DNA from: Paraniabella hibiscisoli
GTDB lineage: Bacteria; Bacteroidota; Bacteroidia; Chitinophagales; Chitinophagaceae
NCBI RefSeq assembly: GCF_022512515.1
Contig: NZ_JAKWBK010000001.1
Location: forward strand, 2,418,001-2,482,000
Length of the DNA stretch: 64,000 nucleotides
Reading direction: 5' to 3'
Part shown: positions 7,712-23,473 of the stretch, in pieces
Position numbering within the stretch: position 1 is the first letter of the stretch
How the letters are laid out: every line of letters begins with the position of its first letter
Program-made: the position numbers and the translations under genes
The notes under the pieces: model-generated
Databases searched by the model: none
Told to the model about the DNA's origin: nothing
What the model saw: only the letters and a program-made list of their open reading frames with translations

Positions 7712-8916
7712 ATGCAACAATTAGCGTCTTTAACCGGAAGTATTAAACATTACGATTGGGGTGGTACCTCTTATATCCCGTCTCTATTGCAGATTGAAAA
7801 TCCCAACCTGGAGCCATTTGCTGAATACTGGCTGGGGGTACATCCGCAGGCAGATTGTAAGCTAACCCTTACCGGCGACAAACAGGTGCTGCTAAGGGAC
7901 TATATTGAAAAGGACCTGGCAACTGCTTTAGGGACCACTGTTTTAAAACGGTTTGGCAATCTGCCTTATCTTTTAAAAGTGCTGGATGTAAAAGATATGT
8001 TGTCTATACAGGTTCATCCGTCGAAAGAGCAGGCTGCTATTGATTTTGAAAAGGAAAACGAGGCAGGGGTGCCGTTGTCAGCACCTGACAGAAATTATAA
8101 AGACGCGAATCACAAACCGGAATTAATGGTGGCGATGAGCGAGTTCTACCTATTGCATGGCTTTAAGCCAGAGGATGAACTGTTGGCGGTATTGGACAAA
8201 GTGAAGAGCTGAAAAAGTTCAAAGCCGTTTTTAAAAAGAAAGGTTATGCAGGGTTGTATCAATTATCGATGGAAATGCCACAGGAAGAAGTGAATGCCTT
8301 ATTACAACCCCTGTTGGCACGCATCATCCCGTTGTACCAAAATAACCAACTTGAAAAAACAGACGAAAATTTCTGGGCAGCAAGGGCGGCATTGACATTC
8401 GGCAGGCCCGGCGTTATCGATCGGGGCATTTTCTCTGTGTATTTTTTCAATTTGTTACACCTCACAACAGGCCAGGCGATATTCCAGGATGCCGGTGTGC
8501 CTCATGCTTACCTTGAAGGTCAGAATGTAGAAATTATGGCCAGCAGCGATAATGTATTGCGCGGCGGACTAACCACCAAGCATATAGATACGGTGGAGTT
8601 GTTGAAACATACCCGTTGCGAAGCTACCCATCCCAAAATAATTAAACCGGCTAAGGGGAAATCTGTGCAATCGTATAAAGCTCCGGTAAAAGACTTTACA
8701 TTAAATTCTTACCAACTTAATAAAGGAGAAGCCATAACGCTGGATATTGCAACAGCAGAAATATTTTTATTGATGCAGGGAAAAGTTACGCTGCAGTCTA
8801 AAAAGATAAAAGTGGCGCTGGCAAAACCCAATATAACGGCCGCTGCTTTTGCCGGAGCAACTGTAACCATAAAAGCGTTGGAAGATGCCTGGCTGTTTAA
8901 GGCTGCGGCGCGGTAG
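7712..8916 (+). CDS. manA: mannose-6-phosphate isomerase, class I
   Basis: Interconverts mannose-6-phosphate and fructose-6-phosphate using zinc. Family signatures are HYDWGG, AEYWLGVHPQADC, zinc-site segments SIQVHPSKEQA and DANHKPELMVA, and the cupin segment DAGVPHAYLEGQNVEIMASS. Corrected length is about 401 residues. The frame is split near 8197, where GTGAAG should read GTGGAAG; repair gives LDKVEELKKFKAVFKKKGY. The stop is immediately followed by the convergent lipoprotein gene. Confidence 0.9.
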
Positions 8917-11319: not shown

Positions 11320-12103
11320 ATGAAGGATTTTACTATCGTAAATAGGAATACGCCCATACTGGCTTTCGCCTTGCATGACGGTCACGAGATAGATGACGCC
11401 CTGCGTCCTTATCTTCTGTTAGATGAGCAAGGCCGCGCCAGGGAAGAAGATCCTTACACGGGATATATGATCAGTGAGCTTCCTGTTACTACGATATTGG
11501 TACATGGCTCCCGATTTCAGCTGGATCTAAACCGGACAAAAGAAAAATCGGTTTATGCAAAGCCGGAAGATGCCTGGGGCCTGAAGGTTTGGAATGGTCT
11601 CCTGCCACATCTATTCAGGAGCTGCATATACGCTATGAACAGTTTTATACGGCAATACTGCTGTTAATTGAAGCAGCTATAAAGGAACATGGGCGCTTTT
11701 TGATACTGGATGTTCATTCTTACAATCATCGCAGAGAAAATTCGTTTACAGAAGCGCCTAACGAAACGTACCCAGAAATTAACCTGGGAACGGCTTACAA
11801 TAAAGATAAATGGCAGCCACTATGCAACCGCTATAATGAGTTTTTATCAGCATCTAAAGTTTTAGGAAAACAGCCAGATGTTAGACAGAACATCATTTTT
11901 AAGGGGGCGCATTTGCTCAGTGGGTAATAAATGAGTTCGGGGATGATGGAGCGGTGCTTTCGATCGAATTTAAAAAAACTTTTATGGATGAATGGACAGG
12001 TATTGCTGATATACCGCATATCAATGCTTTAAAGCAATTATTGGAATCGTCGGTAAGCTTTTTGCAAAAGGAAATAGAAAACGGAACCTGGAATAAAGCA
12101 TGA
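11320..12103 (+). CDS. N-formylglutamate amidohydrolase family enzyme
   Basis: Zinc amidohydrolase family (N-formylglutamate deformylase/HutG2-like). Motifs: ILAFALHDGHEIDDAL near the N-terminus, TTILVHGSRFQLDLNR and LILDVHSYNHRREN carry the metal and substrate residues. Corrected length is about 261 residues. Two breaks, each repaired by one G (near 11595, giving VWNGSPATSIQELHIRYEQ; near 11907, giving FKGGAFAQWVINEFG). The ATG of the next gene overlaps its stop (ATGA at 12100-12103), indicating translational coupling. No histidine-degradation genes are nearby, so formylglutamate is unlikely to be the substrate. The partners (metallopeptidase and ATP-grasp) suggest an amide or peptide substrate. 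Confidence 0.8.
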
Positions 12104-13945
12104 CAGAAGCTAATCAAAAAATATTGAACCGCTTGCAGGATAAGCTTAAAAAATCAGAGCCGATCCATATCACTTTGCCCGGCAATGGTCTTCTTAAAAT
12201 TGAGAAGCCTGTTCCGTTTTTATTGGTATACCGGCTGGGGAGGGGAAAGATTATTTTCCTAACCGGTTAGGCAAAACAGAGTCAGCTTTCCTGATTGCAG
12301 AAGACAGGGCAGATGGTCTCATGCGAAAGATTATTGAAATGGTTAGTACTTTACTGGCAGACAAGTTTAATGGTTTTTTGATTTTGGAAACCTGGCTTTC
12401 ACCCAAAGTATATCAGTCTCCTTTTACTATTCATATCAGCCAGAAAAGGGCAATAGATACGGCCCGCAAACTGGATGTAGAGTTAAACAAAATACCTATA
12501 CCATCCTGGGGAAAAACCTCTGTCATTCAAAAGCAACAGAATCCGGCAACGCCGGCAAATGCACAACCTCTATTGCAGAAGGAATATATAGAAAAAAACG
12601 GGATCACTTTTGTTGGGTTAGAAATAGCACCCGTATATGTAAATGAAGCCACCGGTAAACCTTATCCTTTGTTTTTGCGTGAACTGAGGGCGAGTTATAG
12701 CAAGGCGTTGCGTAAAAGTTTTTTCGAATTTATACGTTTGCAAACTTCTTTTATTGCTTCTCATTTTCAGATGTTGGGTACTACCATCATAGATGATAAG
12801 GCCCGTGAAATAGACAGGGAGCTGGCAGCGTATACCAAGATGTTCGACTTTCTGATGTTGGTAACACCCATTAATGCGGACGCCGCATGGAAAGATTTTG
12901 AGAAAGCTAACTATGCTAAGAATCCGGTGTTTCATTACCGGCCTATGCCTGTTGATCCGGAGCTGATCAAAAGGAAAATATATAACCTGCCTATTGAAGA
13001 AATAACGGACCCTACCATTGCTTTTTTGTTTCGCGATAAAAGAAAAGAGATCGACCGGATGCTGAACATGATGCAGGAACGTGAAAAGCATGATTTCCTG
13101 TTGAGCAGTTTGCAATTATTCGGTCCGGTTAGTGAACAGTTGCTGGATGTAGCGAAAGCCCTGCTGGTGGCGGTAGATGTGGGGAGTGAAGTTGCTCCTG
13201 AATCGAAAAGATTAACCGCTGCAGAGTTTGCGTTGCTGGCTCAAAAAGAATTGAAATGGCTACGGGCCCAGGATAGTAGCATATCGACCAATGTGCGTAT
13301 TGCAGAAGATATAGAGGGAATACTGGTGTCAAAAGGGGTGCTGAATATTAACTCAGGCTTCGGCGTCTCAAAAAAAGAGCACAGCCTCTTTTACAGCACG
13401 AAATTGGCACGCATGTGGTAACTTATTATAATGGTAAGGCTCAACCATTGGAGTTGTTTTCTATCGGGGTACCCGGTTACGAAGAATTGCAGGAGGGGCT
13501 AGCAGTGCTGGCAGAGTATATGACAGATGGCTTAACGGCTAGCAGGATGCGTACACTTGCGGCGCGTGTAGTAGCGGTACAGGAAATGATCAGCGGTAAA
13601 TCCTTTGTAGATACGTTTAACCTGCTCTCTGATAAATATGCTTTCACCCCTCATTCGGCTTTTAATATTTGTATGCGGGTGTATCGTGGTGGCGGGCTTA
13701 CAAAAGATGCTGTTTATTTAAAAGGTTTTTTGAATATTATAGATTATATCAAAAAAGGAAAAGACCTCAGGCACCTGTTGATCGGAAAGATCCGTGAAGA
13801 TTACCTGCCTGTAGTACAGGAGCTGATCCATCGCAACATTCTTTTGGAAGCACCCATAACACCGCGTTTTTTACAGGGAGATTTTTTGGCAAAGCTCGAA
13901 ACAATTAAAAAGGACGGGAACATTTTTAAAATGATTCAACAATAA
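12100..13945 (+). CDS. DUF1704 / QEGLA-motif metallopeptidase (tyrosine carboxypeptidase-like)
   Basis: About 615 residues after repair. It belongs to the family annotated as flavohemoglobin expression-modulating QEGLA motif protein (TIGR02421/DUF1704). That family is homologous to the eukaryotic tubulin tyrosine carboxypeptidases of the KIAA0895/MATCAP type. The zinc motif HEIGTH (HExxxH) lies at about 13403-13420, followed by YYNGKAQPLELFSIGVPGYEE and the namesake LQEGLAVLAEYMTDGLT, whose glutamate is probably the third ligand. Breaks near 12242 (one G) and 13373 (one A) are repaired by single bases; the second gives SKKRAQPLLQHEIGTHVVT. It starts on the stop of the amidohydrolase and ends ten bases before the ATP-grasp gene, a tight three-gene operon. 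The substrate is unknown. Confidence 0.82.
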
Positions 13946-13955
13946 AAAACTATAT

Positions 13956-14939
13956 ATGCGCATAGGTTTTGTTATTAATGATTATGATCGTGAAGAATCC
14001 TATTTCACTACTACCCGGCTGGCATTGCAAGCCCTTCAAATGGGACATGAAGTGTATTATATCGCGGTGCAGGATTTCAGCTATACCGCTTCCGGGCAGA
14101 TGGGTGCTCATGCAAAAAAGCGCCGGCTAAAAAATTCCGGAGCCCCCAGATATTTATGGAAGCGGTCTTTGAGGTAGAGAAAAAACTGATAGAGTCCAAA
14201 GACCTGGATGTTTGATGTTGCGCAACGACCCCTCTGCCGATCTGGATGACCGACCCTGGGCACAGTATTCGGGAATTGTATTTGGACAATTAGCCAAGAA
14301 AAACGGAGTGTTGGTCTTGAACAATCCTGACACGCTCGCCAAGGCTACCAATAAAATGTATTTTCAATACTTCCCTGAGATCATAAGGCCGGAGACTATT
14401 ATTACCCGTAGTATTGCGGAAATTAAAAGCTTTTACGCGGCACATAAAAAAATATTGTCTTAAAGCCCCTTCAGGGATCGGGAGGAAAGAATGTTTTCCT
14501 GGTTAATGAACAAAATCAGAATTTAAACCAGATTGTAGATGCTATTGGACGCGATGGGTATATCGTTGCACAGGAGTACCTGCCGAAAGCCAGTAAAGGA
14601 GATATAAGGCTGTTCCTGTTAAACGGAAAGCCAATAGAAATTGACGGAAAAGTAGCAGCTATACATCGTACACAGGCAGGTGGCGATATCCGCAGTAATA
14701 TTCACCAGGGAGGCTCTGTATCCCAGGCTAAAATAACCCGGAAGATATTTGACATTGTAGATGCTGTAAGCCATAAGCTGGTTAAGGATGGGATGTTCCT
14801 TGTGGGCCTCGATATTGTAGGAGATAAGGTGATGGAAGTGAACGTATTTAGCCCTGGTGGTATGGGACATGCCTGCAGGCTGAACGACGCTAATTATTTT
14901 GAAGAGGTCATTAAGGCAATTGAACAGGAACTGGACTAA
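13956..14939 (+). CDS. GshB/RimK-like ATP-grasp ligase
   Basis: About 328 residues after three one-base repairs (near 14120, 14212 and 14455). The N-terminal MRIGFVINDYDREESYFTTTRLALQA and LRNDPSAD resemble glutathione synthetase. The ATP-grasp core has VLKPLQGSGGKNVFLV (phosphate-binding glycine loop), QEYLPKASKGDIRLFLLNGKP, IRSNIHQGG and the magnesium/ATP segment LVGLDIVGDKVMEVNVFSP. Such enzymes join a carboxylate to an amine through an acyl phosphate. No gamma-glutamylcysteine ligase is nearby, so glutathione synthesis is not supported. The operon with a carboxypeptidase-like enzyme suggests it adds an amino acid to a peptide or small acid. Its stop overlaps that of the convergent sucrase/ferredoxin gene. 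Confidence 0.82.
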
Positions 14940-15835
14940 GACAACTCCTCTAATTTCGCCAGCTTAAACTTTGAAATATTTTCCTGTTTTGTAGCACTGC
15001 AGGTTAAAAGATGCGGATAATCGATCTTAACCCTCTCCAGGTCCATCATGTAATGGCCATTATTGCTGGTGGTTACGTCTACCTCGTAATGGTCGCCCTC
15101 ATGTTTTAGTAAATGAGTATGAATTTCGAAATCTATATCATAGTTCTGCAAATGTTCACGCAAATGACATTCTATAGCTTGTTCATAAAATGACCTGCGG
15201 GATACACCTCTGAATTTATTCTTATAAATTTTTCTCAAAAGGGTTCTTACCATAATATGCCCAACATCTTCCACCGCAACATGCCCGTAATAAATACCAA
15301 AAGGCATAGCAATAACATTGGCTGCAAAACGGTCACCCCCTACATGGGTACATTCCCAAACATTTACATCTGCATTAAAGGACTCAAAAAATTTAAACAC
15401 CGGGAAGCCGAATTTGGCACAGCATTTATCTTTTTTGCCATTGGTACAGATCACAAAAAAGGGATCTGTCTGCCATTCCGTATCAGCGGAATTGATATGA
15501 TCTGATAACTTAATAGAACTGATCTGTTCAATGGTGCTCTGAATGGTAAAATAGCGCCCGGCTTTATTGTCAACAAAAGATATCTTACAATCTTTAAAAT
15601 TGGTTTTTTTATTGCGGATCAGTAATACTTTTCCTTTCAGGCTTTTGGCCAGTAGCTGGATACCTTTAAGCCACTCTTTATCAAAATGTGCCTCAATGAT
15701 CTTTTCAGGAAAAGGATTGGCATGTTCAATTAAAATGAACGCGCCGGCATTAGCCGCAGTGCCGGCCAGCTGCTCTTTAAAATACCGTGATGCGGCACTG
15801 CAGAAAAATACCTCTTTCTTAGTATTGTTGTCCAA
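14936..15835 (-). CDS. sucrase/ferredoxin-like protein (thioredoxin-fold [2Fe-2S])
   Basis: Intact, 299 residues. Two family blocks are clear: FVICTNGKKDKCCAKFGFPV, holding the iron-sulfur cysteines, and WECTHVGGDRFAANVIAMPFGIYYGHV. Relatives (PF06999; yeast Apd1/Aim32) bind a [2Fe-2S] cluster with two Cys and two His in an H-x3-H motif; here the second position is Asp (HVGGD). I find no ATG in frame, and the likely start is TTG at 15835, 11 bases after the upstream JmjC stop, consistent with coupled translation. It may feed electrons to the adjacent oxygenase or act in redox maturation; that is inference from context. Confidence 0.75.
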   Translation of the reverse strand: MDNNTKKEVFFCSAASRYFKEQLAGTAANAGAFILIEHANPFPEKIIEAHFDKEWLKGIQLLAKSLKGKVLLIRNKKTNFKDCKISFVDNKAGRYFTIQSTIEQISSIKLSDHINSADTEWQTDPFFVICTNGKKDKCCAKFGFPVFKFFESFNADVNVWECTHVGGDRFAANVIAMPFGIYYGHVAVEDVGHIMVRTLLRKIYKNKFRGVSRRSFYEQAIECHLREHLQNYDIDFEIHTHLLKHEGDHYEVDVTTSNNGHYMMDLERVKIDYPHLLTCSATKQENISKFKLAKLEELS

Positions 15836-15846
15836 ATAATAATACT

Positions 15847-17029
15847 TTACAATTCATCAATATAAACAACGCCTTCCCTGATTAGTTGTGTAATCAACCC
15901 TTTTACAGACTCTGCATCTCCGGATAGATCTTTCAGCTTCAACTTCTTTTTACGGAAAATGTCATCAACTACCGGTTTAAGTGTATCCGGAAACTGGATG
16001 GCTTTACCCAGCAAATGTAGTTCATGGCCCGTTTCTTTTTCACAAACTGGTAAATCAGCCCTTCGTTTAAAGCTAACGGGCTATCGCCGCTTAGCTTGCT
16101 GATATTCCTGATGCTCTCAAAATAATTGCGAACGGGTTGAGGTTGAGCCGAATGAAAACTTTTATTCAACCGCTCTATGCCTTTATTAAAATTAAGTTGT
16201 GACAATTTCTGACGAAGGCTTTCTGTTTTTTCCTGTATTAATTCAGTCAGGTCGCCTTTCCAGAAGGGAACGGCTTCTCTGAACTCTTTAAATTCTTCCA
16301 GCTGGGGGAATATTTCATTGAAGTACCTCGCCCAGGTAAAAGATAGCACACCTATCGTAATGTGAGAAGAAATGCCATCATCTGCCATGGCATCATGCAC
16401 ATAACCGCGAGGAACATATAAAAAGTCACCAGGACTTAGTTGTATCGTTTGAATAGGTTCTTTCTTATAATCCTTACTTACAAAAGACTGGTTCTTTGTG
16501 GGGAGCTCTTTTTCAAATCCGTATAAATGCCAGGTTTTAGTGCCCGATATCTGCAATACAAAAACATCATGGGTGTCCCAATGCGGGTTAAATCCCTGCG
16601 ATTTGTTCGGCGTAATGTATAAATTGGCCTGTACAGGAGCGTTGAACTTTGCGAAAGCTCCAGGCTGCAGTGGGAGAGGTTATTAAAGTAACGCTGTCCC
16701 GCTTGTATTACAAACGTGGCGCCGTTATTAAAAAGGGCGAAAGCTTTTTCAGTATTGATGATCCCGTCTTTACGGTGATGCCCGATCGGCGTGCTCTTTA
16801 AAGTATAATCGCCGTTAGGAATTTCTTTCCCGTTTTTAACAATACGAACTGAGGGGTAGAAAATATCCTGGCGTTCCAGGTAGTCGGAAATCTCACGGGG
16901 TGTTAAAATGTCCTGGTAGTACTGCTCGTCGTTTCTTTTTACATGTAAAATGTCTTTTTCATGGTACTTTTCAAAAAAGTCTTCCAGGCTATAGGGCGCT
17001 ACAATTTTATCGAAAAAATAATTCATCAT
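15847..17029 (-). CDS. JmjC/cupin-type 2-oxoglutarate-dependent oxygenase
   Basis: About 393 residues after two one-base repairs (near 16650 and 16045). The architecture fits the MINA53/NO66/YcfD ribosomal-oxygenase group (Cupin_4): an N-terminal segment, the JmjC core ANLYITPNKSQGFNPHWDTHD with the iron motif H-x-D, FVLQISGTKTWHLYG, then QLSPGDFLYVPRGYVHDA with the distal histidine. A C-terminal helical/winged-helix part ends ...GLITQLIREGVVYIDEL. Such enzymes hydroxylate side chains of peptides or proteins (Arg or His in ribosomal proteins). No ribosomal gene is adjacent; instead a 78-residue Asp/Gly-repeat peptide is encoded 117 bases upstream on the same strand, making it a plausible substrate. 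Housekeeping ribosome hydroxylation remains possible. Confidence 0.8.
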
Positions 17030-17084
17030 AGTTTTATTAAGGTATGCACGTCATAATAACGCAATGGGGCATGCAAAGTGCAAA

Positions 17085-17122
17085 AAAAGCCGCAGTAAAT
17101 ATTATTTTCTGCGGCTTTTAAA
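17085..17122. terminator. hairpin between repeat-peptide gene and JmjC gene
   Basis: GCCGCAG (17089-17095) and CTGCGGC (17109-17115) form a perfect seven-base stem around a 13-base AT-rich loop. A7 precedes and TTTT plus A-rich sequence follows, so on the minus strand the stem ends in a T run. It sits downstream of the small peptide gene and upstream of the oxygenase start, where it could limit read-through. Confidence 0.8.
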
Positions 17123-17146
17123 AAAAGTCCTTTTAAGGCTTAAAGA

Positions 17147-17383
17147 TTAGGCTTCAGTTGTTCCTTCGGTAGTTTCGCCACCATCGCCGTCTGCACCGCC
17201 ATCACCATCAGCACCACCGTCGCCGTCTGCACCACCATCACCATCAGATGCATCACCACCATCAGCACCACCATCACCATCTCCATCTCCGTCGCCATCA
17301 TAAGCGCCTTCTGTAGCGTTCACTTCATCTAATCTTGTTACCAATACTTCTTCCTGATTCAATTCAATATTTGTTGTTTCCAT
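17147..17383 (-). CDS. Asp/Gly-repeat peptide, candidate modified-peptide precursor
   Basis: 78 residues. Residues 1-27 (METTNIELNQEEVLVTRLDE, then VNATEGA) look like a leader. Residues 28-69 are almost only Gly (20), Asp (15) and Ala (5), including a GD alternation at 29-38 and three tandem GADGDG units at 51-68. Residues 70-78 (ETTEGTTEA) form an acidic tail. The three DNA units differ only at synonymous third positions (unit 1 and unit 2 at five codons), which indicates selection on the protein. No signal peptide or hydrophobic segment. A partial -7-like box (TACTTTAG) lies about 50 bases upstream. It is followed by its own hairpin and then by the JmjC and [2Fe-2S] genes. Alternatives are a calcium-binding acidic peptide or an unrelated orphan. 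Confidence 0.65.
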   Translation of the reverse strand: METTNIELNQEEVLVTRLDEVNATEGAYDGDGDGDGDGGADGGDASDGDGGADGDGGADGDGGADGDGGETTEGTTEA

Positions 17384-17533: not shown

Positions 17534-20526
17534 ATGCGTTATTTGTTGACAGCTCTCTTATTCATTGGCAATTTATGCAGTGCCCAAAATCTTAAGTATA
17601 TTAACGGCAATAATAGTTGGAATGCCGACTCTTTAGGTAATCATCGCTTTATAATAAAACTAAGCAAGGAGCAATTGGCGATAAACAAATCAGTGGCATA
17701 TGTAAATATTCCGTGGCGCCGGCATGACGATAATGTTGCTCAAAAACGTATTATTATGGTGGGTGAGACCGGCACCAAGCCTATTGATAACATAAAGATA
17801 GTATCTGCAGATAATGAGCAGGCGAGTATATTATTTGAACCCTCCGAAGGCGCGGGTAGCTACTATGTGTATTATATGCCCTACAAAAATGAAGGACGAT
17901 CTAACTATCCCAGGGGCGTATATTTAAAACAGGCGGAAACAGCAAGTGAAGGCTGGCTAAAGCAAACCTTACTGAAGAATGCATTTGCAAAGGCCGTTAC
18001 TATCACCTACGAACCTATTAACGCTTTCAACAGCTTTTATCCCATGGGAATGATTGCTACCAGGAACGAAACAGCACAGTTACAAAGAGGCGTTGCGAAT
18101 AAAAAATACCTTGTTTTTCCTGAAGATAGAATGCATCCTGTTCAGATGAGGGATTACCTGCCCTATCGTTGGGTACAAAATGGAGCTCGCCCGGCTTTTA
18201 AAGACACGGCGGCGCGGGGAGAGTATTTTACCTTCCAGCTCGGTGTGTATGCACTAACGGACCTGGCAAATGTACAGGTTGAGTTCTCTGATCTGAGATC
18301 CAAAAATAACCAGGTTATTCCCGCACAATATATTTCCTGCATCAATACAAATGGGACCGATTATAAAGGTAATTTATGGCAGACACAGGTAAATGTTCCC
18401 GGTGGTACCATACAATCTATGTGGTGTGCAGTTGATGTGCCTTTGAAGAGCGCACCGGGTATTTATACCGGCACGGCAACGGTGAAGACCGGCCAAAGCG
18501 GTAACCAATCCATCCAAGTAACACTGGTTGTTAACAATAAAGTTATAAAAGACCAGGCTGCTGATCCCGAAAAACAAACAAGACTTAAATGGTTGAATTC
18601 GACCCTGGCTCAGGACAATACAGTAATTGCGCCCTATACGCCTTTGCAGGTAGCGGATACAACCATATCCCTTTTAGGGAGAAAAGTGCTGATAAATAAA
18701 GATGGTTTTCCCGCACAGATACAAACCTTTTTTAAGCCGGAAATGACTTCCATTGGAACAACGCCCAATAATATCCTGATGGAACCTATACATTTTCATC
18801 ATATAGAGAGCAACGGGAAAGCCGTGAAATGGAAGAGTGATGGAATACGATTTCTGCAAAAAGATGCCGGCATTGTTAAATGGGAAGCGGTTAATACCTC
18901 GCCAAAGTTGCGCATGAAGGTGAATGCGGCTCTCGAATTTGATGGCTTCCTGGCCTATACGGTACAACTGGTTGCGCTGGAGGACGTTTCTTTTAAGGAT
19001 ATTACTTTTCATATTCCTGTAAATCCTGCGATGACCGATTACTTTATGGGCCTTGGAATGAAGGGCGGTCAAAGGCCCGATTCTGTTTTATGGAAATGGG
19101 ATGTGGCGCATAAAAACCAGGATGGCGGCTGGATCGGCAATGTGAACGCCGGCTTGCAGTTTTCATTAAGGGATGAACATTATACACGCCCTTTAAACAC
19201 TAACTTCTACTTGCAAAAACCGCTGCTGTTGCCACAATCATGGGGTAATGGAACCAGTGGCGGAATTGATGTTTTTAGAAAAGGCAGTTCCGTATTGGTT
19301 AATGCGTATAACGGTGCCCGTAGTATGAAGGCCGGCGATACACTTTACTATAATTTTAATTTGCTGATCACTCCTTTTCATACGATTAACACCGATTTTC
19401 AATGGAAGAACCGTTTCTATCATAAATACGAAGATCTGCAAAGCATAAAAAATAAAGGAGCATCTGTAGTAAACATTCACCATGCTAATGCTATTAATCC
19501 CTATATTAATTATCCTTTTATCGAATGGAAAAAGATGAAGGCTTACATTGACAGTGCCCATGGGCTTGGATTGAAAGTAAAAATATATAATACGGTTCGG
19601 GAGCTCTCCAATAAAGCATATGAAACCTTTACCTTGCGTAGCCTGGGGCATGAAATTTATTCTCCGGGTCCGGGGGCGGGTTTAGCTGGTTACAGGAGCA
19701 GGTAGGCAAGGATTATATTGCTGCTTGGTTTGTACCTGAGATCAAGGATGCGGCCATTGTTAATAGTGGTATGAGCAGGTGGCATAACTATTATGTGGAA
19801 GGTATGAATTGGCTGGTAAAAAATGTTGGAATAGATGGTATTTACCTGGATGACGTGGCATTTGATCGTGTTACCATGAAACGGATAAAACGGATACTGA
19901 CGCAGAACGGAGCGCCCGGCATCATCGATCTGCATTCGGCTAACCAGTTTAATAAAAGTGACGGGTTTAATAATAGTGCCAACCTCTATATGGAGCATTT
20001 TCCTTATCTCAACCGGCTTTGGTTTGGAGAGTATTTCGATTATGAAAAAAGTGATCCCGGCTTTTTCCTTACGGAAGTGAGTGGTATTCCTTTTGGTTTA
20101 ATGGGTGAAATGTTACAGGATGGTGGTAACGCCTGGAGGGGCATGGTATATGGCATGACCAACCGGATCCCCTGGAGCGACAATGCTGATCCACGACCGA
20201 TCTGGAAGGTTTGGGATGACTTTGGAATGGAAGGATCTGAGATGATAGGCTATTGGGTAAAAGACTGCCCTGTAAAAACAAGTCATGCACAGGTGCTGGC
20301 AACAGTGTATAAAAAGAACGGCGCAACGCTGGTTTCACTCGCCAGCTGGGCAGAGAAAAATGAAACGGTTAAGCTGGCGATTGACTGGAAAAAGCTGGGA
20401 ATCGATCCTGCTAAAGCCACCATTACTGCGCCTGCAATAAATAATTTCCAGGAAGCTGCAACCTTCAGGCCCGATGACGTAATACCCGTTGAGAAGAACA
20501 AAGGATGGCTTTTGATCATCAAATAA
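17534..20526 (+). CDS. secreted glycoside-hydrolase-like protein (DUF6067 type)
   Basis: About 997 residues after one repair: a G lost near 19677, giving GGFSWLQEQVGKDYIAAWF. Signal peptide RYLLTALLFIGNLCSAQ. The N-terminal two thirds are beta-sandwich-like (RGEYFTFQLGVYALTDLANVQ, PGIYTGTATVKTGQS). The C-terminal part from about residue 600 looks like a TIM barrel of glycosidase clans: NVGIDGIYLDDVAFDR with an Asp-Asp pair at a strand end, GAPGIIDLHSANQFNK, YFDYEKSDPGFFLTEVSG. This matches the DUF6067 glycoside-hydrolase domain group. It probably acts on polysaccharide in the periplasm or outside the cell. The sugar isomerase downstream fits a carbohydrate-use role. Confidence 0.7.
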
Positions 20527-20673: not shown

Positions 20674-21590
20674 ATGAATAGAAAAGTTTTTCTTAGAAAT
20701 GCTTCAGCAATTGCCGCAGCTTGCGCTGTGATGCCTGCATGGGGAAAAGAGCTCATCTCCGTAAAAAATCTTTTTCGAAATTTCATTGGCCCAATGGTCT
20801 TTACATAAAAAGCTTTTTGCCAAGGAAATGGACAATCTCGATTTTCCGGGAGTAACTAAAAAGGAGTTTGGTATTAGTGTAGTAGAGTATGTGAATACCT
20901 TTTTCAAAGACAAAGCTGAAAATACGCAATACCTTAATGAATTGTTGAAACGCTGTAAAGATAACGGGGTAAAAAATCACCTCATCATGTGCGATGGGGA
21001 AGGCGATTTGGGAAATGCTGATGCAGCTGCCCGTACAAAAGCGGTGGAGAATCACTACAAGTGGGTGAATGCTGCTAAATACCTGGGGTGTGCTACCATA
21101 AGGGTTAACGCAGCCGGTAAAGGCACTGCTGCCGAAGTATCGGATGCTGCCGCCGAAGGTTTATCAAAGCTGGGGGCGTATGCTGCAAAAGAAAAATAAA
21201 TGTAATAGTAGAGATCATGGTGGCTACTCATCTGACGGAAGCTGGTTGAGCGGTGTTATGAAAAAGGTTAATAAGTCCAATGTAGGCACTTTACCTGATT
21301 TTGGGAATTTCTGTATCAGGCGAGATGGAAATAAATGTGCGGAAGAATATGACCGGTATAAAGGCACAAAAGAGCTCATGCCTTTTGCCAAAGGGGTTAG
21401 TGCCAAGAGCTATAATTTTGATAGTAATGGAAATTGTGTGGAGACAGATTATGATAAGATGTTGAAGATCGTAAAAGAATCGGGCTTTAAAGGTTATGTA
21501 GGCATAGAATATGAAGGAGGCGCCATTTCTGAAAGCGAAGGAATACTTAAAACAAAAGCTTTGTTAGAGCGTATACAAAAAAGCCTGTAA
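20674..21590 (+). CDS. sugar phosphate isomerase/epimerase, exported
   Basis: Xylose-isomerase-like TIM barrel, about 306 residues after three one-base repairs (near 20770, 21195 and 21214). It begins [23 protein letters not shown], a signal of the kind common in Bacteroidota exported isomerases. Core motifs: [52 protein letters not shown] (metal ligands) and [13 protein letters not shown] near the C-terminus. It presumably isomerises or epimerises a sugar or keto-acid released by the upstream secreted enzyme; the exact substrate is unknown. Followed by a strong terminator. Confidence 0.8.
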
Positions 21591-21597
21591 AAAATGA

Positions 21598-21630
21598 AGC
21601 GGGTACTATCAACATAATCTAGTACCCGCT
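21598..21630. terminator. bidirectional terminator isomerase / DUF983
   Basis: Perfect 11-base arms AGCGGGTACTA (21598-21608) and TAGTACCCGCT (21620-21630) lie between two convergent genes. Confidence 0.85.
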
Positions 21631-21653
21631 CTTATAATCTTTGACAATAGTTG

Positions 21654-22120
21654 CTACCAGTTATCGCCCTGGTCTTTATTAATGCGTTCTGAAACATCCA
21701 TTGGTCCCCGGCTGCTCCAGTTCGGATCATACTTCACAAACCAGGAAAGCCAGAGGCTACGCGAAAAACGCATGAGCCACGGTTGTAAAGAAACCAGGAG
21801 CAAGGCGTTGAATATGATCCAGTAAACAAATCGGTTGTCTTGTAGTGAAAAACCGATCAATACCCACCAGGCAATGGCGCTGGCTACACTAAGCGCAACC
21901 GCCAGCATATAGCTCACATAACTGGTGCCGTAAAAAAGCCTACCTCAATTTCCGTTGGTTGACCGCAAACAGGGCAGTTCTTATTCATTTTCATAAAGCC
22001 GCTGAGTTTTAAAGTGAGCGGTTTTTCAAACAATTTACCCTCTCGGCAACGGGGGCAATAACAGCCTAATACCGTTCCTAAATAACTTCTCCTGGCTTTT
22101 TCATTGTGCTCCATGACCAA
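21654..22120 (-). CDS. DUF983 membrane protein with zinc ribbon
   Basis: About 155 residues. Two CxxC knuckles (GCYCPRCREGKLF and NCPVCGQPTEIE) form a zinc ribbon, followed by two hydrophobic segments (SYMLAVALSVASAIAWWVLIG and FVYWIIFNALLLVSLQPWL). A T lost near 21937 splits the frame; repair gives EVGFFYGTSYVSYML. The family is found in Bacteroidota and Alphaproteobacteria near respiratory genes, without a proven role. It starts at or just after the murF stop, so both are likely in one transcript. The alternative ATG at 22114 is equally plausible. Confidence 0.75.
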
Positions 22121-22121
22121 T

Positions 22122-23410
22122 TTATTGGGTGATTGCGGTTAATATTTTCTCCATCTGGGAACTTCTGCTGCCCTTTATCAGGATATAAGCATGTTCGAAA
22201 TTTTGCCGACCAGCCCATTCTGCCGCATCAGCCGAATGCTCGAAGTAGGTAAAGTCTTCGCTATAGGGAAGGAAAGGCTTACCTACTAATACAACCTGGT
22301 ACCAGCTGTTTTGTTGGATCTGGTTAATGAGTGTTGCATGTTCAATGGCGGTTTCATCGCCCATTTCGGCCATAGCGCCGATCATTAATATTTTTTATCA
22401 GCTTTAATATGAGCCAGGTTTTCAATAGCCAGTTTCATGCTGCTGGGATTGGCATTATAGGCATCCAATATAATTTTGTTGCTACCTTTTTCAACCAGTT
22501 GCGAGCGGCTGTTCGACGGCCTGTAGCTTTCTATCGCCATTTTTATAGCATCGGCAGTAATATCAAATTCATGACCCAAAGCAACTGCTGCCAGCACATT
22601 GGGTAAATTATAGTCACCTACCAGCTTTGTAGCTATTGGTAACTCCGTTTCGCCCATTGATATAGTAACGGCCAGCAACTCGCCTTTTGTTTCAGCCTTT
22701 CCGTTGATCAGGCATCATGGGTGCCATAAGTTACAATGCGTGCAATACCCTTGCTCATCTCCTGCAGGTAATCATAGTCTTGCATGATAAAAGCGGTAGC
22801 ATCCTCCCGGGTGCGTAAATAGTCAAACAATTCTCCCTTCCCCTTTCTAACGCCTTCCAGGCTGCCAAATCCTTCGAGATGCGCTTTGCCACAATTGGTG
22901 ATCAGCCCATGTGTAGGTTCCGCCACCTGGCAATAACCTTCAATTTCGTGCAGGTGATTGGCGCCCATTTCCACTACAGCTATTTCGGCATCACGCTTTA
23001 TTTTAAGCAGGGTAAGCGGAATGCCTATATGGTTGTTCAGGTTTCCCTCGGTGGTGTACACTTTATATTTGGCGCTCAGTACCACATGAATCAGCTCTTT
23101 AGTGGTGGTCTTACCATTGCTGCCGGTAATAGCGATCAATGGAATGTTGAACTGCCGGCGGTGGTAATTCGCCAATTGTTGCAGGGCTGTCAATACATCC
23201 TCTACCAAAATGGTCTTGCCCGCAACTTCAAAAGCCTGTTCATCTATAATTGCGTATGCGGCTCCTGCGTCCAATGCCTGTTGTGCAAATTGATTGCCGT
23301 TGAAGTTGGGGCCTTTCAATGCAAAAAAGATCGCCTGCTTGTAGCTTCCTCGTATCTGTCTGTATGTTGGGATATTGTAAATAAACCTCGTAAAGTGCCG
23401 CTGTGTTCAT
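22122..23410 (-). CDS. murF: UDP-N-acetylmuramoyl-tripeptide--D-alanyl-D-alanine ligase
   Basis: Adds D-Ala-D-Ala to the UDP-MurNAc-tripeptide in the cytoplasm, the last soluble step of peptidoglycan precursor synthesis. Motifs: NIQTDTRKLQAGDLFFALKG, the ATP loop AITGSNGKTTTKELI, VVEMGANHLHEIEGYC, NCGKAHLEGFGS, DYNLPNVLAAVALG, ILDAYNANPSSMKLAI and MIGAMAEMGDE. Corrected length is about 430 residues. Three single-base breaks near 23335, 22710 and 22390 explain the fragments. An in-frame ATG at 23428 exists, but the family start fits 23410. Confidence 0.92.
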
Positions 23411-23473
23411 AGCTGCAAAAATAGACAAATGAAGGGAGTTAGTTATATTCGCGGGGAATAAACAGGGGGCTTG

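Follow-up and report, generated by a model that had tools for sequence, protein, structure and literature searches.

The stretch analysed here (the window, 64,000 nucleotides of the genome of Paraniabella hibiscisoli, a Niabella-like member of the Bacteroidota) carries on its minus strand a small operon in which the gene for an acidic Asp/Gly-repeat peptide precedes the genes for a JmjC-type oxygenase and for a [2Fe-2S]-type protein. The peptide gene (17147..17383, minus strand) is an open reading frame (ORF) of 78 amino acids. It is followed on the same strand by the hairpin and T run of an intrinsic terminator (17082..17117), by a JmjC_2 gene (PF08007; 15847..17029) for an Fe(II)/2-oxoglutarate oxygenase resembling NO66 and MINA, and by an intact gene for a 299-residue Suc_Fer-like protein of the thioredoxin-fold [2Fe-2S] type (PF06999; 14936..15835). 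Together they make up a conserved core, which we consider rather probably, on the strength of its sequences and their distribution, to be a RiPP-like system (RiPP, ribosomally synthesised and post-translationally modified peptide) whose JmjC_2 enzyme hydroxylates the acidic peptide. A sequence-only reading of the window had listed six genes in two operons meeting tail to tail, and the ORFs, with Pfam and NCBIfam models, confirm all six in place.

The peptide of the window has an N-terminus with LNQEEVLVTRLDE, which gives way to a D-G-D-rich core built from DG and GGA units. The genus peptides (65-82 residues) align in the same manner, with a variable N-terminus containing [ED]-[EDA]-[LVF]-x-V-[TI]-R ahead of the Asp/Gly core; the N-terminus is more variable than the core, and the statistics of the leader motif are weak for Niabella. 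Successive core Asp residues are spaced 2, 3 or 4 apart in all 15 genus peptides, and D-G-D occurs 6-11 times in the peptides of the window, of locus L022 and of Cruoricaptor ignavus (L and G numbers designate our loci and genomes). When eight of the 16 peptides were compared, all from relatives of the window copy, each of the 28 pairs (8 genomes) differed in the Asp/Gly core by 11-28 synonymous changes and by 0-4 amino-acid changes. The core is under strong purifying selection: its DNA has diverged yet its amino acids have been held, so that the spacing of the acidic residues is kept. We reject DNA slippage as the whole explanation of the repeat, because the amino acids hold in spite of wide variation among synonymous codons. 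The DNA pattern of DGDGDGDG, which fits the window's subgroup only, was found in 6 of 99 relatives, namely five Niabella-group genomes that have it at this locus and a further genome with two matches at unrelated places. The peptide is not matched above cut-off by any Pfam or NCBIfam model.

A terminator hairpin with its T run separates the peptide and JmjC genes in Cruoricaptor (L039) and, counting the window, in 14 of 15 Niabella-group intervals; the exception, L031, has an interval shortened by the choice of start codon. Because this conserved terminator separates the two genes, the arrangement suggests that the cell makes more of the peptide than of the enzyme. Upstream of the peptide there is no clean match to the Bacteroidota -7 promoter consensus at a shared place, and a similar T-rich element recurs.

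The JmjC gene is frameshifted in the window, where ORFs 16478-17029 and 15969-16556 are its pieces (15847 as its low end comes from the sequence-only reading). Only the C-terminal fragment matches JmjC_2; the N-terminal fragment alone gives no JmjC match. The intact protein of locus L018 has 393 amino acids and scores 100.5 bits against PF08007, compared with 51.2 for the window fragment and 106.5 for a distant homologue (L079), the cut-off being 22. The closest solved proteins are NO66 (E about 1e-28) and MINA (E about 1e-25). An alignment of 12 of the 15 genus copies, without the frameshifted, broken or short ones of the window, L019 and L031, shows no variation at residues H149, D151, H211 and K164 (numbered as in L018). 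The matching columns are also invariant in a 19-row alignment that includes 15 of 49 distant loci. These are the predicted Fe/2-oxoglutarate ligands, and they are conserved; we take the roles of the H-x-D...H residues and of the Lys to be those of NO66.

The Suc_Fer-like protein matches PF06999 with 85 bits (cut-off 34.9). Its residues C130, C138, C139 and H164 are invariant in 11 copies (10 of the 15 genus copies and that of L039), and in all 11 aligned copies the last position of H-x-G-G-x is Asp168. The family motif is presumably H-x-G-G-H, with His where this protein has Asp168, which is possibly an unusual [2Fe-2S] ligand. Among solved structures the protein finds three weak ferredoxin matches (E 0.0075-0.0097). 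A gene for an FAD/NAD/Fer2 reductase lies about 1.7 kb from Suc_Fer in L022 (5997-7037), and L023 and L029 have, judged by eye, similar ORFs about as far away; the L022 reductase could be an electron source or a case of chance synteny.

A conserved core and an independent cassette

We used the Suc_Fer-like protein as a probe in 99 genomes (E<=0.001) and found it in 15, which are 15 of the 17 of the genus and 0 of the 82 others. All 15 keep the order peptide, JmjC, Suc_Fer, and they keep the core adjacent although the flanking genes vary. The full set, in the same order, is also present in Cruoricaptor ignavus (L039), of the family Weeksellaceae, whose JmjC protein is 62% identical. The association of peptide and JmjC is not due to chance, given that it holds in 15 of 15 genus genomes with the Suc_Fer gene. 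The check set beforehand, a short Gly/Asp-rich ORF at most 500 bases upstream of JmjC, found one in all 15 genus loci and in Cruoricaptor. The proposed link between the peptide and the oxygenase is thus borne out as a conserved unit, which also recurs as a pair of different form in other phyla, and the Suc_Fer-like protein, which the sequence-only reading had placed in the same operon, belongs to the core in the 15 genus genomes and in Cruoricaptor.

The JmjC gene is itself sparse in Bacteroidota. Among 395 sampled genomes of this phylum (E<=1e-20, at most four candidates scored per genome), it matched in seven, two of the genus and five others. These five (L132-L136, in genomes G352, G427, G396, G181 and G367) have NO66-like JmjC_2 genes, with no acidic peptide in their 1.5-kb flanks. 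Three of them (L133, L134 and L136) have matches to NHLP-type RiPP precursors beside JmjC_2, of which that of L134 alone exceeds the curated cut-off, and in L136 there is also a partial LanM match below cut-off; they are possible JmjC-tailored proteusin or lanthipeptide clusters. On the evidence of these precursor matches, with which the literature agrees, enzymes of the JmjC_2 family do occur in RiPP settings.

The plus-strand neighbours are distributed differently. The window encodes there (11320..14940, plus strand) an amidohydrolase (FGase, PF05013) in two fragments, a MATCAP protein (PF08014, also matching the QEGLA model TIGR02421) in two fragments, and a fragment of an ATP-grasp protein resembling glutathione synthetase (GshB), all identified by Pfam and NCBIfam. 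The sequence-only reading had joined this trio to the minus-strand operon and counted ligase, peptidase and amide hydrolase among the steps of the pathway. When the trio was sought within 18-kb stretches around the core, it was near the core in 5 of the 15 core genomes (the window, G004, G002, G001 and G003) and was not found in the other 10; in G002 the distance is about 5.6 kb, and the stretch does not contain all three pieces. MATCAP occurs in 7 of 59 genomes searched, which are these five together with G010, where core and MATCAP are on different contigs (the cassette on contig 3), and G013, which has the cassette (contig 144) and no core match. It is absent from the whole genome in 9 of the 10 core genomes without a nearby trio, G010 being the tenth. 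The trio is an independent cassette and lies outside the system, because it is near the core in only five of 15 genomes and occurs elsewhere unlinked or without it, so that its three activities are not to be counted as pathway steps. A comparative-genomics paper of 2009 on ATP-grasp amidoligases reportedly mentions a cassette of FGase, DUF1704 and ATP-grasp; in the open-licence literature, to which all our literature searches were confined, we found no paper pairing DUF1704/QEGLA/MATCAP with ATP-grasp or amidohydrolase.

The genes for FGase, MATCAP, ATP-grasp and JmjC are each covered by more than one ORF in the window assembly, as are manA, murF and others nearby. The split regions (7712-8916, 11320-14940, 15847-17029 and 20786-23428) are single frames in L018 (genome G004), to which the window fragments are 86-98% identical, except for one FGase piece at 70%. 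Since L018 has the same genes as single frames, the splits look like assembly errors. The peptide frame and the Suc_Fer-like gene are unbroken in the window. That the peptide is itself an artefact of a frameshifted assembly is ruled out by its open frame in 14 other genomes. On its other side the system adjoins a gene of glycoside hydrolase family 123 (PF19543), in two frames (17534-20526).

Acidic peptides beside JmjC_2 genes in distant bacteria

A scan of the genome collection, in which the HWDTHD motif was among the patterns used for distant loci, gave 58 loci: eight of Niabella, on contigs already counted above, that of Cruoricaptor ignavus and 49 distant ones (L041-L089), chiefly from Acidobacteriota and Gemmatimonadota. 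The JmjC proteins of the distant loci are about 26-33% identical to those of the Niabella group. After exclusion of five loci with less than 400 bases upstream (L075, L076, L082, L085 and L086), 44 could be tested, and 32 of them have a short acidic peptide, on either strand, at most about 1.1 kb upstream of JmjC. Of these peptides, 25 were found by pattern, two are Glu-rich (L041, L043), four were recognised by Asp content (L049, L050, L053, L062) and one was added later (L074). In a tree of six of the 15 genus proteins and 47 of the 49 distant ones (L088 and L089 being too short), all 32 peptide loci fall in one supported clade of 43 rows (96/87), 38 of them testable, which spans Acidobacteriota, Gemmatimonadota, one Verrucomicrobiota, one Planctomycetota and one bin labelled Pseudomonadales.

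The distant peptides consist mostly of D-x-D repeats, with at least one D-S-D in all 25 found by pattern. A typical one reads [LI]-T-[DE]-x-D-[IV] ... R-R-S-F-L ... C, followed by the acidic tail. Most of the pattern-found peptides have R-R-x-F and a downstream Cys, a start reminiscent of twin-arginine translocation (Tat) signals and lipoboxes, and so the distant peptide looks, in its sequence, like a Tat-exported lipoprotein. In L041 and L043 a leader of the same type begins a peptide about 250 bases upstream of JmjC, in which Glu-Ser and Glu-Gly replace Asp-Ser; these two loci are a natural test of the residue that the enzyme needs.

Several controls bear on this pairing. A pattern of leader plus acidic tail matched at most 2 kb upstream in 27 of the 44 loci, a figure biased by the tuning of the pattern on these very peptides, and had no match in 492,758 bases from other parts of these loci. 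Among 14 other PF08007-matching loci in relatives, none has an acidic peptide in its 1.5-kb flanks, although this is a loose control, most of the 14 being weak matches; the closer NO66-like loci L114, L069, L078 and L084 have none either. We also scored the similarity of Niabella-group to distant leaders with a position matrix, against 168 long and 779 short control ORFs. The leader of Cruoricaptor beats all of them (0 of 947) and is the only clear case, and the fraction of shuffles reaching the observed score is 0.12 for the window, 0.03 for L022 and 0.48 for L029. These scores point weakly to a recognition motif shared by Niabella and the distant groups.

The genes around the distant pairs suggest a connection with metals. 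PepSY_TM proteins include ferric-siderophore reductases. A gene for such a protein is found close to JmjC at 27 of the 49 distant loci, and among the 32 loci with a peptide the count is 24 (five proteins confirmed by profile, the rest by tblastn). At 20 of these 24, JmjC lies on the strand opposite to that shared by the peptide and PepSY_TM. In the Gemmatimonadota locus L079 (5864-13410) the peptide and JmjC are followed by a substrate-binding protein, FecCD, an ABC ATPase and HemS, with a divergent PepSY_TM, and the presence of HemS makes this presumably a locus of the haem-uptake type. An imelysin gene lies about 3 kb beyond JmjC in L066.

A candidate peptide-hydroxylation system and its rivals

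We infer the substrate role of the peptide, the site and type of its modification, its metal binding and its export as follows. The peptide would be the substrate, with a short N-terminal leader and a nearly invariant acidic D-G-D repeat, and would be supplied in excess of the enzyme by means of the terminator between the genes. The JmjC_2 protein would hydroxylate side chains of the repeat, most likely at the Asp beta-carbon, in view of the enzyme class and of Asp as the shared feature. The Suc_Fer-like protein might be the redox partner in the Bacteroidota version, which is a guess. The product is perhaps an acidic metal-binding peptide, its beta-hydroxy-Asp residues acting as hard ligands of Fe(III) or Ca; siderophores are known to bind Fe(III) through beta-hydroxy-Asp. 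We put forward metal binding by the product as a tentative idea. In Acidobacteriota and Gemmatimonadota the peptide would be exported as a lipoprotein, usually encoded near a PepSY_TM membrane protein.

The pairs in distant bacteria suggest an undescribed peptide-modification system. It is conceivable, if doubtful at present, that they and the Niabella core make up one undescribed class, in which dedicated NO66-like JmjC enzymes hydroxylate D-x-D repeat peptides into arrays of beta-hydroxy-Asp metal ligands. Such a class would have two forms: one in Niabella and Cruoricaptor, without export signal and with the [2Fe-2S] Suc_Fer partner, and another in Acidobacteriota, Gemmatimonadota, Verrucomicrobiota and Planctomycetota, an exported lipoprotein that would capture the iron freed from haem or siderophores and hand it on to a reductase system of the PepSY_TM type.

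A number of observations weigh against these proposals. Twelve of the 44 testable distant loci are without such a peptide (L042, L044, L063, L067, L069, L070, L071, L078, L084, L087, L088 and L089), and six of the twelve belong to the supported clade. Nor are the distant loci independent of one another: L047 and L050 share an identical JmjC, Verrucomicrobiota and Planctomycetota are represented by a single bin each, and so many of the rows come from near-identical metagenome bins of Acidobacteriota that 32 is far more than the number of independent cases. Some of the peptides also depart from the D-x-D repeat: L041 and L043 carry Glu-Ser repeats with few Asp, and the Asp-rich peptides of L049 and L083 show no clean repeat. 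The Tat model TIGR01409 scored above cut-off in only one of 13 distant peptides scanned. On the Niabella side, the leader score of the window peptide is reached by 3 of the 168 long and 11 of the 779 short control ORFs, and the leaders of L018, L029 and L030 are unremarkable against the controls. No exporter or leader peptidase was recognised in the Niabella core on inspection by eye of the ORFs listed for six stretches, that of L018 among them, and the Niabella-group stretches and L039 have no homologue of PepSY_TM, FecCD or the substrate-binding protein, other iron genes not having been searched. Finally, instead of being a substrate, the repeat could act as a metal chaperone or simply as a flexible spacer of acidic residues.

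The main competitor of peptide hydroxylation, in our view improbable though to be taken seriously, is that the peptide stays unmodified and serves as an acidic metal-binding or regulatory accessory of JmjC, whose real substrate would be another cell protein, as for NO66, MINA and YcfD. The enzyme's closest relatives among solved proteins, NO66 and MINA, are indeed ribosomal oxygenases, acidic D-x-D stretches generally bind divalent metal, and the peptide is strongly conserved. The distribution is, however, narrow, unlike that of a ribosomal modifier (the Suc_Fer partner in 0 of 82 genomes outside the genus, JmjC in 7 of 395 Bacteroidota), a separate terminator suggests an excess of peptide, and the distant relatives pair with peptides that look exported. 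It is considerably less probable that the peptide is a small protein with some other role, structural or calcium-binding for instance, which goes unmodified and stands beside JmjC for historical reasons. Low-complexity acidic repeats have many uses, and the peptide has no Pfam or NCBIfam match above cut-off, but a historical accident fits poorly with an adjacency kept in 15 genus genomes with differing flanks and in Cruoricaptor, and with parallel pairing in four other phyla.

The pairs of Niabella and of the distant bacteria may also have arisen independently and share no mechanism, an explanation that we regard as being about as tentative as the single class and that agrees with hydroxylation of the peptide in Niabella alone. 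It draws on the weak leader match of Niabella, the different third genes (Suc_Fer against PepSY_TM), the JmjC identity of only about 26-33% and the lack, in the tree, of a clade that joins both groups while excluding peptide-less JmjC rows. Yet both groups place the same kind of unit, acidic-small-acidic, beside one JmjC_2 family, they have the HWDTHD motif in common (itself a search pattern), and the Cruoricaptor leader scores well against the distant ones. As for a single pathway of six genes, in which JmjC hydroxylates, the ATP-grasp protein ligates amino acids, and MATCAP and the amidohydrolase trim, the trio and the core are adjacent tail to tail in the window and near each other in four relatives; this proposal is largely refuted, and we hold it to be very improbable, given that the trio was not found around the core in 10 of 15 genomes and given where MATCAP is missing, on another contig or without a core.

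If hydroxylation of the acidic peptide is correct, a route of two or three genes would lead to a ribosomally made, polymer-like array of modified acidic residues, a route seen in five phyla, two of them known from single metagenome bins. It would give enzymes of the NO66/MINA type a bacterial substrate class other than the ribosome. Through the L079 operon and the PepSY_TM neighbours, the modification of a peptide would also be connected with the acquisition of iron.

Comparison with known systems

In titles and the beginnings of abstracts we found no description of a JmjC gene paired with an acidic-repeat peptide, nor any paper on PepSY with JmjC or on JmjC with acidic lipoproteins. The nearest enzymes are the ribosomal oxygenases NO66, MINA53 and YcfD, which belong to the same family (PF08007), give the best matches among solved structures and align with the JmjC protein here at the H-x-D ... 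H pattern and at the K of G-x-K-x-W. The enzyme studied here differs in adjoining an acidic repeat peptide and in being sparse in Bacteroidota, and this narrow distribution argues against a ribosomal-oxygenase function. No ribosomal gene was noticed near the core in L018 and five other stretches, on inspection of ORF lists by eye with no family search of the neighbours. The S-D repeats of the Sdr/Clf adhesins resemble the acidic peptides in their low complexity and give weak matches to them; these matches are far below the cut-offs, and the peptides here are short, in contrast to those large adhesins.

There are also precedents from peptide biosynthesis. The JmjC protein BipG is described as an ornithine hydroxylase in biphenomycin biosynthesis (PMC12707348), and BipG/BpmG and PbsQ resemble our proposal in that a JmjC/cupin oxygenase acts on a precursor made by the ribosome (PMC12707348, PMC12257519). 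Their core is an F-R-F-type motif that is also processed by a multinuclear non-haem iron oxidative enzyme (MNIO), a B12-dependent radical SAM enzyme (B12-rSAM) and an arginase, whereas here the putative substrate is an acidic repeat and no modifying enzyme beyond the Suc_Fer-like protein is conserved. Proteins of PF08007 with folds like the RiPP recognition element (RRE) have been reported, with bacterial homologues in RiPP-like contexts, in an account whose accessible portion mentions neither acidic repeat peptides nor PepSY neighbours (PMC12710340). They belong to the same Pfam family as the JmjC protein here, whose relatives we found beside NHLP-type precursors. SmaO/SmaX work in a graspetide cluster, and the accessible part of their description leaves JmjC_2 enzymes and D-x-D repeats unmentioned; what they carry out, Asp beta-hydroxylation in a ribosomal peptide (PMC13097080), is the very modification that we propose for the acidic repeat.

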